From: Ferruginibacter sp. | GTDB lineage: Bacteria > Bacteroidota > Bacteroidia > Chitinophagales > Chitinophagaceae | DNA length: 64,000 nt | Assembly: GCA_019638575.1 (NCBI GenBank) | Contig: JAHBTN010000001.1 | Coordinates: 186,001 to 250,000 of the forward strand | Direction of reading: 5' to 3' | Part shown: positions 38,321 to 41,173 of the stretch, piece by piece | How positions within the stretch are numbered: the stretch's first letter is position 1 | Layout of the letters: each line of letters opens with the position of its first letter | Program-made: the position numbers and the translations under genes | The notes under the pieces: model-generated | Told to the model about the DNA's origin: nothing | The model's input: the letters and a program-made list of their open reading frames with translations, nothing else | The model's database searches: none

Positions 38321-38345
38321 AATGGGCAAATTTCATTTGCCCATT
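38321..38345. terminator. Hairpin enclosing the lpxD stop codon
   Basis: AATGGGCAAA (38321-38330) pairs with TTTGCCCATT (38336-38345), and the lpxD stop codon falls in the 5-base loop. Neither side has a good T run, so a bidirectional terminator role is only possible. Confidence 0.4.
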
Positions 38346-39277
38346 ACTTTATCCCACAATTCAGGAATCCTTTTTATCCAAACCAGTTCACGCCTTGCAA
38401 TACCGGCTTCCTGTGCTGGCGCTCCCCAATATGTTTTGTTACCTTCTAAATCGCCACCAACACCGGTACGTGCCAGTAATACCGCATTGGCACCAATGGT
38501 AAGGGTTTTATTTACAATCACCTGTCCCCACAATGTAACACCATCTTCAATAGTTACCACACCTGCAATTACTACATTGGCTGCCATCAGGCAATTTTTT
38601 CCTATGGTAGTATCATGGCCCACATGTATTAAATTATCCAATTTACTGCCTTTGCCAATAATGGTATCATGTGTTACGCCACGGTCAATGGTACAGTTGG
38701 CTCCAATTTCCACATCATCTTCAATAATAACCCGGCCGCAACTGGGCATTTTTTTATACCAAACTTCACGGTCTTTTTTCCCATTGTAATAAAATGCATC
38801 GCTGCCAATTACTGTGCCTGCCTGTATCACCACATTATCGCCAATGATACAATTATCCATAATATTAACATTAGGATGTATCACTGTATTTTTTCCTATT
38901 GAAACTTGATGGCCAATAAATGCACCGGGGTAAATATAACTTCCCTCGCCCACCACAGCAGTTTCACTAATTAAACCACTTGTTTTTTTAAAAGGCCTGA
39001 AATGATTTACAATTTTACAATACGCATCAAAAGGGTTATCTACAATTAATAATGCTTTTCCATCGGGTACTTCTGTTTCTTTATTGATGATGATAAAACT
39101 TGCTGCGCTGTGCAAACACTTATCATAATATTTTGGATGATCTACAAATACAAGATCCCCTTTTTCAACTTTATGTATTTCGTTAATGCCGGTAGCAAAT
39201 TCAGTAGTATTGCCAATTAATTTTGCATTAATCAACCCGGCAATCCAGGTTAAAGAAACAGGAGAAGGAAATTGCAT
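38333..39277 (-). CDS. lpxD: UDP-3-O-acylglucosamine N-acyltransferase
   Basis: The product has about 314 residues from the ATG that follows an exact promoter element; a TTG start six codons earlier is inside that promoter area. An N-terminal uridine-binding domain (about 1-90) is followed by a left-handed beta-helix of hexapeptide repeats (from VGEGSYIYPGAFIGHQV), with the catalytic His in IHVGHDTTIG. LpxD adds the second acyl chain in lipid A synthesis at the cytoplasmic side. At 314 residues it is somewhat shorter than E. coli LpxD (about 340). Bacteroidota often carry two lpxD-like genes; this is one of them. Confidence 0.88.
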   Translation of the reverse strand: MQFPSPVSLTWIAGLINAKLIGNTTEFATGINEIHKVEKGDLVFVDHPKYYDKCLHSAASFIIINKETEVPDGKALLIVDNPFDAYCKIVNHFRPFKKTSGLISETAVVGEGSYIYPGAFIGHQVSIGKNTVIHPNVNIMDNCIIGDNVVIQAGTVIGSDAFYYNGKKDREVWYKKMPSCGRVIIEDDVEIGANCTIDRGVTHDTIIGKGSKLDNLIHVGHDTTIGKNCLMAANVVIAGVVTIEDGVTLWGQVIVNKTLTIGANAVLLARTGVGGDLEGNKTYWGAPAQEAGIARRELVWIKRIPELWDKVMGK

Positions 39278-39292
39278 AATCAAAAATTTAAT

Positions 39293-39300
39293 CAAAGGTA
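39293..39300 (-). promoter_or_regulatory. -7 promoter element of lpxD
   Basis: TACCTTTG on the minus strand matches TAnnTTTG exactly, 15 bases before the lpxD ATG. Confidence 0.65.
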
Positions 39301-39690
39301 CATGCTTTACTCAAATTCTGTTTTTATCAAAAAAGCATATTAAACCGGGGATTTTTTAAGAATCCGGAAAAATATTTTTTATTTTTTTTAACCTCTAAAA
39401 TCAGCCTATCTGCTTACTTGCGTTTTGATTTATTAAATGGAGAATTGAAAAAAGAATTATAAAAAATAAATGAAAAAATTTTTTACGATGCTTGCAAATA
39501 TAGCAGGGGCAATGATTTTATGCATTGATAGTTTTTTATTTTACATCATTAATACTTTCTTCTTTTTTAAAATTTTTTAAAACACGAAAAATATAATTGA
39601 AAAACCTTTGCGATTATCCACAGCCCATTTTTAAATGTTAATAAAATTTATTGAAAAAATTTTTTGGTTAGCAGAAATTCTTTTTAATAT
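39301..39690. other. AT-rich gene-free stretch with A/T tracts
   Basis: About 390 bases of strongly AT-rich DNA with many A5-T6 tracts and no credible ORF. It holds one perfect DnaA box. Such DNA can be curved or easily melted, and the gene orientation changes from mainly leftward to mainly rightward near here. Confidence 0.5.
39614..39622 (+). promoter_or_regulatory. Perfect DnaA box
   Basis: TTATCCACA is identical to the consensus high-affinity DnaA box. No second exact box was found within the same gap. Confidence 0.55.
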
Positions 39691-39692
39691 TG
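39663..39692 (+). promoter_or_regulatory. Promoter of the candidate small RNA
   Basis: TTTG (39663-39666), an 18-base spacer and TAATATTG (39685-39692) match the Bacteroidota -33/-7 arrangement with one mismatch in the -7 box. It predicts a start near 39697. Confidence 0.55.
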
Positions 39693-39696
39693 TGTA

Positions 39697-39769
39697 GGGA
39701 ATTTGGTTCCCGGTACTTACTAACCCATCTATATATCAAAGCCCGGCTAAAAAGCCGGGCTTTATTTTT
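39697..39769 (+). ncRNA. Candidate small RNA, about 73 bases
   Basis: The predicted transcript opens with a 5'-terminal hairpin (GGGAA, loop TTTGG, TTCCC; 39697-39711), then about 26 single-stranded bases rich in C, T and A (GGTACTTACTAACCCATC), and ends in a perfect 11-pair GC-rich terminator. A promoter with both elements lies at the expected distance upstream. No ORF fits inside. It could instead be an attenuating leader of the GNAT gene at 39793, but the terminator plus separate promoter fit a free small RNA better. I do not recognise the family. Confidence 0.55.
39738..39769 (+). terminator. Strong intrinsic terminator of the small RNA candidate
   Basis: AAAGCCCGGCT (39738-39748) pairs perfectly with AGCCGGGCTTT (39753-39763) over AAAA, followed by ATTTTTC. 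Confidence 0.92.
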
Positions 39770-39792
39770 CTGTTCATCTTCAAAAAAAATGT

Positions 39793-40263
39793 ATGCCATT
39801 GAATGAATTTGTAAGAGATGATTTTATCATCAGCACTAACAAAAAAAAATTGGATGTAGCGTATATACATCATTACCTGAGCAATGAAAGTTACTGGGCT
39901 AAAAATATCCCGGTATCAATTGTTATAAAATCAATTGAAGGTTCATTATGTTTTGGGTTATATCAAAAAAAAGGATATACAGAAACAGTACAAATTGGTT
40001 TTGCAAGAGTAGTTACAGATTATGCAACCTTTGGTTACCTGGCCGATGTTTTTGTTGATGAAAAATACAGAAGCCGTGGTTTGGCAACCTGGATGATGGA
40101 AATAATTATGAACCACAAAAACCTGCAGGGTCTTAGACGTTGGCTACTAGCCACCAGGGATGCCCATGCTTTGTATTTAAAATTTGGGTTTTTACCATTG
40201 GATAAACCTGAACGGATAATGAGCTTCAAGCCATTTGAAGAATACCCAAAAGATAACTCATGA
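39793..40263 (+). CDS. GNAT-family N-acetyltransferase
   Basis: The 156-residue protein has the GNAT acetyl-CoA-binding signature DVFVDEKYRSRGLATWMMEI (V-x-Q/K-x-x-R-G-x-G/A type) in the middle and RDAHALYLKFGFLPLDKP near the end, which matches the small GNAT group with a YxKxGF motif. The substrate is unknown. It follows the small RNA terminator by about 25 bases, so it would need a further promoter or depend on readthrough. yicC begins 34 bases downstream. Confidence 0.9.
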   Translation: MPLNEFVRDDFIISTNKKKLDVAYIHHYLSNESYWAKNIPVSIVIKSIEGSLCFGLYQKKGYTETVQIGFARVVTDYATFGYLADVFVDEKYRSRGLATWMMEIIMNHKNLQGLRRWLLATRDAHALYLKFGFLPLDKPERIMSFKPFEEYPKDNS

Positions 40264-40297: not shown

Positions 40298-41173
40298 ATG
40301 CTTAAATCGATGACGGGTTTTGGAAGGGCTGAACAAACTGAAACTGATAAAACCTTCCTGGTAGAAGTAAAAGCACTTAATGGAAAACAGTTTGAACTTC
40401 AACTAAGGCTGCCTCCTTTATTAAAACCTTATGAATTTGAAATACGCAATACCATTCAGGAACATTTAGTAAGAGGATCTATCGACTGTACAATTACCAT
40501 CAAACAAAACGGAACTTCAAAACCGGTTAACATAAATACCGATTTAATAAAAGCATATTATACACAAATAGAAACATTGGCTGGCGAATTAAAGATTGAC
40601 ACCAATTCGGTATTAAGTGCACTGCTGCGATTACCCGAAGTAGTAACACCTGCCAATGATGTTTTAAACGAATCGGATTTTAAAGATTTTAATAAAGTTT
40701 TGCTGGAAGCACTGAATGACCTTAACCGGCACCGCACTGATGAAGGCGCAGTGCTTGAACAAGACTTAATAACCCGTATTAACAATATAAAAGAACAGGA
40801 AGAAGCCATTTTAAAACTTGAACCCAACCGAAAAGTAAGGATAAAAGAAGAAATAAATAACTTGCTGGAAAAACATGTTGGCAAAGAAAATATTGATAAC
40901 AACCGCATGGAACAGGAACTTATTTATTATATGGAGAAGATAGATATACATGAAGAACAAATAAGATTGCGACAGCACTGTGAATATTTTAAATCAGTTG
41001 TAAAAGAACCTGAAGAAGATAAAGGCAAAAAATTGTCGTTTATTTTACAGGAAATAGGGCGTGAGATAAATACAACCGGCAGCAAAGCCTATGATGCCGA
41101 CATACAGAAATGTGTAGTAAAAATGAAAAGCGAACTGGAGAAGGCAAAAGAACAGGTGCTTAATATTTTATAA
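40298..41173 (+). CDS. yicC: YicC-family endoribonuclease
   Basis: The 291-residue protein opens with LKSMTGFGRAE, the family signature, and ends with the C-terminal ENTTGSKA-like region (GREINTTGSKAYD) and helical DUF1732 part (CEYFKSVVKEPEEDKGKKL). YicC proteins are metal-dependent RNases that degrade small RNAs in E. coli. In many genomes gmk follows; here gldH follows instead. It lies 0.5 kb downstream of the candidate small RNA, a link that is only suggestive. Confidence 0.94.
   Translation: MLKSMTGFGRAEQTETDKTFLVEVKALNGKQFELQLRLPPLLKPYEFEIRNTIQEHLVRGSIDCTITIKQNGTSKPVNINTDLIKAYYTQIETLAGELKIDTNSVLSALLRLPEVVTPANDVLNESDFKDFNKVLLEALNDLNRHRTDEGAVLEQDLITRINNIKEQEEAILKLEPNRKVRIKEEINNLLEKHVGKENIDNNRMEQELIYYMEKIDIHEEQIRLRQHCEYFKSVVKEPEEDKGKKLSFILQEIGREINTTGSKAYDADIQKCVVKMKSELEKAKEQVLNIL

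Follow-up and report, generated by a model that had tools for sequence, protein, structure and literature searches.

Does the gene-free DNA between the lpxD gene and a GNAT acetyltransferase gene of Ferruginibacter sp. encode a small RNA of its own, or does it belong to the gene that follows it? An earlier note on the window (the whole 64,000-nt stretch of DNA analysed here) had described a candidate small RNA at this place, which we call sRNA1, and had offered an attenuator of the GNAT gene as the alternative. The parts that it described, namely the TTTG, the 18-base spacer, the TAATATTG box, the GGGAA/TTCCC arms, the 26 bases between hairpin and terminator and the 11-pair terminator itself, all lie where it had placed them (Table 1). 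Taken singly these parts prove little, as the window is AT-rich, its terminators are about as frequent as in shuffled sequence (3 sites against 2.4) and the sRNA1 promoter is absent from the list of a promoter scan whose consensus is of the E. coli type. Taken together they exceed chance, since the RNA (39696-39770) folds at -28.7 kcal/mol as compared to -15.4 +/- 2.9 kcal/mol for 200 shuffles (z -4.6) and the whole block is found again in other genomes of the genus.

Table 1. Features of the sRNA1 locus and its surroundings (positions are those of the window)
Feature	Position	Strand	Family	Remarks
lpxD	38333..39295	-	PF04613, TIGR01853	divergent neighbour, context only
DnaA-box-like element TTATCCACA	39614..39622	+		left half of inverted pair, upstream of sRNA1
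TGTTAATAA (reverse reading TTATTAACA)	39636..39644	-		right half of inverted pair
TTTG, -33 element of Bacteroidetes type	39663..39666	+		weakly conserved; consensus from PMC7366714
-7 element TAATATTG	39685..39692	+		same in 23/23 aligned homologues
sRNA1	39697..39769	+		predicted transcript of ~73 nt, with its start deduced from the position of the -7 box; covariance model matches in the family
5' hairpin GGGAA-loop-TTCCC	39697..39711	+		arms GGGAA 39697-39701 and TTCCC 39707-39711
recognition segment TACTTACTAACCCAT	39714..39728	+		single-stranded, nearly invariant; exact complement of the sRNA2 core
intrinsic terminator	39738..39769	+		11-pair stem 39738-39763 and T-rich tail
GNAT acetyltransferase gene	39793..40263	+	PF00583	context only; not a conserved neighbour of sRNA1

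With a query of 151 nt, the block is recovered at E <= 4e-16 from 21 of the 24 same-genus genomes, and matches in the other three (G005, G007 and G016) and in 15 genomes from other families of the order are weak. An alignment of 23 rows contains an identical TAATATTG box along with the 5' stem, the segment TACTTACTAACCCAT and the terminator, so that the check proposed for the candidate, conservation of its hairpins or promoter in relatives, came out in its favour. In its promoter pair the -7 box is the same in 23/23 rows, but the -33 TTTG is weaker than had been stated: of 70 distinct homologues 32 have it, and 41 have TTG. These 70 are no test of the -7 box, as the pattern by which they were picked contains that box. 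Among public relatives, the core is carried by metagenome-assembled genomes named Ferruginibacter sp. or Bacteroidetes bacterium and by the isolate Deminuibacter soli, and is missing from three of the eight loci.

A covariance model built from 24 sequences and limited to the RNA part (model R1) matches 283 of 294 genomes of the family (Chitinophagaceae) at E<=0.1, a tally that includes weak matches, perhaps bare terminators. When applied to a sample of the order (133 family genomes and 263 others), R1 matches all 133 family genomes at E<=0.1 and 116 of them at E<=1e-6, as against 112 of the 263 others at E<=0.1, with a best E of 1.9e-5. In a sample of the class the best match outside the family reaches E 2.7e-6, and the core sequence is found in none of the 19 outside-family loci, out of 21, that were read there; outside the family, the two samples give weak matches only. 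Two weak matches within the family (L118 and L124) do have the core, in changed form. The earlier statement that no named family matches holds as well: a search of the whole window against Rfam 15 returned nothing at gathering scores, nor did a search with seven sRNA2 or recA loci (see below). The 73 sub-threshold matches (E up to 10; the best by bits being MicC, 30.4 against a cut-off of 90) are taken as chance because all fall under their cut-offs and lie on both strands. A short reading frame was also considered and rejected, as 43 of the 70 homologues lack any ORF that ends in a stop codon and the longest ORF is of 13 aa.

That the block acts as RNA is suggested by the way its stems change. 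In 64 homologues, standard pairs occupy 96.2% of pair cells and 13 of the 15 pairs show changes on both sides; there are 127 double-change cells as opposed to 31.8 +/- 4.8 after shuffling (a count that none of 500 shuffles attains), and the paired share falls to at most 62.7% in slid controls. This alignment was fitted to the covariance model and therefore leans towards the structure. All 10 modelled pairs of the terminator changed on both sides, with 98.3% of cells paired. For the 5' hairpin the figures are lower (both sides changed at 3 of 5 pairs, 92.2% of cells paired), owing to a register shift between species; when the homologues are folded singly, the hairpin forms in 64/64. The comparative data thus match what had been proposed, a free-standing small RNA that combines a promoter, a 5' hairpin, an open middle and a terminator; very probably sRNA1 is a genuine small RNA gene, conserved across a bacterial family.

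Could the conserved block nevertheless be a DNA element, for instance part of a replication origin, rather than an RNA gene? The DNA upstream of the promoter does invite the idea. It carries an inverted pair of boxes which, like the single boxes at sRNA2, presumably resemble DnaA boxes; the left one, TTWTCCACA, is invariant in 27/27 genus rows, and a pattern search recovers the pair from 36 of 39 genus genomes (0 for a control pattern), mostly once, at the sRNA1 locus. A TTATNMACA-type box occurs within 100 nt upstream of sRNA1 in every one of the 70 homologues, 64 of which have it at the same fixed place; in 64/70 a TGTKNATAA-type box begins 49 nt ahead of the -7 box. Of random 100-nt genome pieces, a background less AT-rich than promoters, 3.0% contain a TTATNMACA-type box. 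The cumulative GC-skew minimum of the window falls at 39417, and sampled GC skew puts sRNA1 near the origin side in the window and in four genomes (G278, G542, G157 and G263). The origin reading first suggested by the skew was dropped, leaving the locus as origin-proximal only, because at +/-50 kb the local minimum does not fall at sRNA1 in four genomes. As hairpin and terminator moreover covary as RNA does, we consider it very unlikely that the block is a DNA element instead of an RNA gene.

The alternative of an attenuator or leader of the GNAT gene has in its favour that, in the window, the terminator lies 23 nt ahead of the GNAT start codon. Among 72 distinct loci, with families named from Pfam and NCBIfam, lpxD lies divergently upstream of sRNA1 in 66. 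Genes of three families were sought downstream, and the first to follow is a pseudouridine synthase gene at 36 loci, a YicC gene at 22 and a GNAT gene at only 11, the remaining 3 having none of these. With the upstream neighbour mostly constant and the downstream one varying, the synteny refutes the GNAT attenuator as a general explanation, to which we give hardly any credence, and points to sRNA1 as a unit of its own rather than the leader of any one gene. In many relatives, the gene for the YicC-family endoribonuclease (40298-41173 in the window) is found a short way downstream of sRNA1.

If sRNA1 acts by base pairing, its open middle should have complements elsewhere. An exact search of 39 genus genomes for TGGGTTAGTAAG, a 12-nt complement of the core, returned 86 places as against 29 for the reversed pattern. 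The surroundings were read at 51 of these and comprise 35 copies of a second conserved block, which we call sRNA2, 6 recA 3' ends, 1 sRNA1 and 9 others; the remaining 35 places were assigned to sRNA1 by coordinates. No broad set of targets is visible, since the 10-nt core complement shows no excess in the window's own genome (13 places, 15 for the control), and a broad target set was accordingly rejected. A sample of 1.34 Mb of DNA has this 10-mer at 10 places, of which 9 lie between genes (sRNA1 5, sRNA2 1, unassigned 3).

The sRNA2 block lies upstream of radA and has its own -7-like box (TAATTTAG), an invariant core (GAATTTAATGGGTTAGTAAGT) and a terminator that also covaries (97.5% of cells paired; 30 double-change cells as compared to 10.0 +/- 2.4); its transcript would be of about 55 nt. 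It is present in 23 of the 24 same-genus genomes, the window's own genome having only a piece, cut by the contig end. With a second covariance model (R2), sRNA2 is detected in 39 of 40 selected family genomes and, in the order sample, in 121 of the 133 family genomes and in none of the 263 others. At 28 of the 30 family loci that were read, sRNA2 is followed on the same strand by radA; of the other two, one is at a contig end and one has an unclear reading frame. A single TTATNMACA-type box stands in 49 of 60 sRNA2 promoters, in every case 46 or 45 nt before the -7 box. Two genomes (G021 and G283) carry two copies of sRNA2, and in 16 of 29 hand-picked pairs on the same contig the two RNAs lie within 40 kb of each other (median 36 kb). 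The sRNA2 core also reads AUG GGU UAG UAA, that is a start, one codon and two stops, which may be a minimal ORF or chance.

The segment TACTTACTAACCCAT is an exact 15-nt complement of the invariant sRNA2 core, and the conserved open segment of sRNA1 is covered by it in full. Within the predicted folds the pairing segment has a mean computed unpaired probability of 0.81 in sRNA1 and 0.71 in sRNA2, and over 26 genome pairs the mean pairing energy is -19.8 kcal/mol versus -5.7 kcal/mol with shuffled sRNA2; 24 of the 26 beat all 30 of their own shuffles, the exceptions being G104 and G066. The mutual complementarity expected of a sponge or anti-sRNA pair is present, as 15 exact nt in conserved cores, and so, in silico, is the accessible conserved segment complementary to RNAs encoded elsewhere that is expected of a trans-acting small RNA. 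In the three genomes with an altered sRNA1 core (G316, G176 and G066), sRNA2 shows no compensatory change: a C to U change in G316 and G176 retains a G-U wobble, and a C to A change in G066 loses one of the 15 pairs, with sRNA2 unchanged. Conservation of sRNA2 extends on the 5' side past the complement by 7 invariant bases (GAATTTA), so that pairing with sRNA1 does not explain all of it. The two RNAs tend to occur together, 113 genomes with strong sRNA1 having sRNA2 and 3 lacking it, as against 8 and 9 of those with weak sRNA1 (Fisher p 1.6e-7, in a test that ignores relatedness and in which fast-evolving genomes could weaken both models together).

A further complement is found at recA. We searched 31 genomes, which returned 30 loci with recA recognised in 29, and GGGTTAGTAAG with two mismatches or fewer stands behind the recA stop codon in 17 of the 29 family genomes (exact in 4, one mismatch in 12, two in 1), while 2.6% of random 130-nt pieces of the same recA loci match. 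The site lies mostly within 50 nt past the stop codon and before a terminator-like hairpin; it is missing in the other 12 genomes. The window's own genome has an exact match, for which the computed duplex with sRNA1 is -27.8 kcal/mol. The suggestion that the open middle could pair with messages thus gains support from complements in the sRNA2 core and, in part of the family, in recA 3' ends. The recA sites do not keep the AUG of the sRNA2 core. Upstream of recA, box-like matches occur in 14 of 26 regions, and were not counted as a sign of a shared regulator because they lie directly behind the LexA box and, by our own reading, at the -33 position; a CTAA-N5-TTAG box is visible in most of the recA promoters inspected.

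Taken as a whole, these sequence comparisons make it reasonably likely that sRNA1 is a trans-acting base-pairing small RNA, with sRNA2 as its partner or sponge and the recA mRNA as a likely target. Both RNAs would be transcribed, and sRNA1 would anneal in the cell through the 15-nt segment that is open in the predicted folds. In the 15-bp duplex with sRNA2, one RNA could titrate or destroy and so silence the other, as sponges and anti-sRNAs do, perhaps through RNase III, and a duplex with the recA 3' end, just ahead of the recA terminator, may change the stability of the recA mRNA. Since the recA site is of the sRNA2 type, we assign the role of regulator to sRNA1 and that of sponge to sRNA2, although it could be the other way round. 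The exact complementarity between the two RNAs, one of them beside a DNA-repair gene, points tentatively to an RNA circuit with a link to DNA repair.

Two other readings accept sRNA1 as real and differ on what its partner sequences mean. Were the invariant segment a protein-binding site, with the complements elsewhere due to a DNA-level or unrelated constraint, a nearly invariant single-stranded 15-nt segment lacking compensatory change would be expected too. However, what sRNA2 and the recA 3' ends bear ahead of a terminator, on the transcribed strand, is the complement and not a repeat of the segment, and a single protein is not expected to read the sequences of both strands as RNA, which makes a protein site improbable. 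Alternatively, sRNA2 could be no free RNA and form the leader at the 5' end of radA, an attenuator in which pairing with sRNA1 just ahead of the stem tunes the terminator. This agrees with the near-constant position of radA behind sRNA2 on the same strand (28/30 loci) and with the rarity of a strict TAnnTTTG box in the gap from terminator to radA (2 of 28 loci, chance about 6%), but a conserved TAnnTTTA box directly ahead of the radA start codon (20/21 loci) indicates that radA probably has its own promoter, so that sRNA2 is less likely to be a mere radA leader. The gap between sRNA2 and radA is otherwise unconserved (23 to 291 nt), and the terminator stems, by inspection, vary with no kept pairing to the core. 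We consider such a leader possible and rather unlikely. An anti-terminator was looked for by eye across the sRNA2 sequences and none is conserved. The same TAnnTTTA box (L327-L354, 20/21 loci) suggests a nearly leaderless radA message.

A more far-reaching extension of the sponge reading is that two small RNAs under joint control, with exactly complementary cores, act as an RNA toggle which sets the capacity for homologous recombination in this family. The DnaA-box-like promoters, the radA neighbour and the recA docking site would then tie recombination genes to the replication cycle through RNA; we regard this as speculative and doubtful. If the regulatory reading is true, an environmental bacterial family has a conserved pair of small RNAs linked to recA and radA and controlling recombination, and two covariance models (R1 and R2) along with a short, testable pairing site are now at hand. 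To our knowledge, the small RNAs of Bacteroidota outside the gut genus Bacteroides have been little studied, and we know of no RNA chaperone in the family of sRNA1. In the open-access literature, as far as its incomplete coverage goes, we found no report of the sRNA1/sRNA2 pair or of such control of recombination in Bacteroidota.

Known systems resemble this pair in part. GibS and FopS (PMC7366714 and PMC11697453) are trans-acting small RNAs of Bacteroides, and share with sRNA1 a Bacteroidota host, a TAnnTTTG-type promoter and a supposed extended pairing that does without classical Hfq. They act on sugar-use genes, whereas sRNA1 points to recA and radA, belongs to a different order, has a different sequence and is without a match in Rfam. 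The same gene, recA, is in Bacteroidetes under a non-canonical LexA (SOS) control (PMC8565304), which acts at the level of transcription; no CTAA-N5-TTAG box was seen by eye in the sRNA1 or sRNA2 promoters. In Caulobacter, CrfA pairs with SisA-D as an RNA sponge and the pair is tied to Hfq (PMC12559287). The present case is similar in that each of two non-coding RNAs is encoded separately and carries a segment matching the other, which it may titrate. Compared by description, the sRNA1/sRNA2 match differs from it in being an exact 15 nt, in extending over a whole family and in recurring in recA 3' ends.
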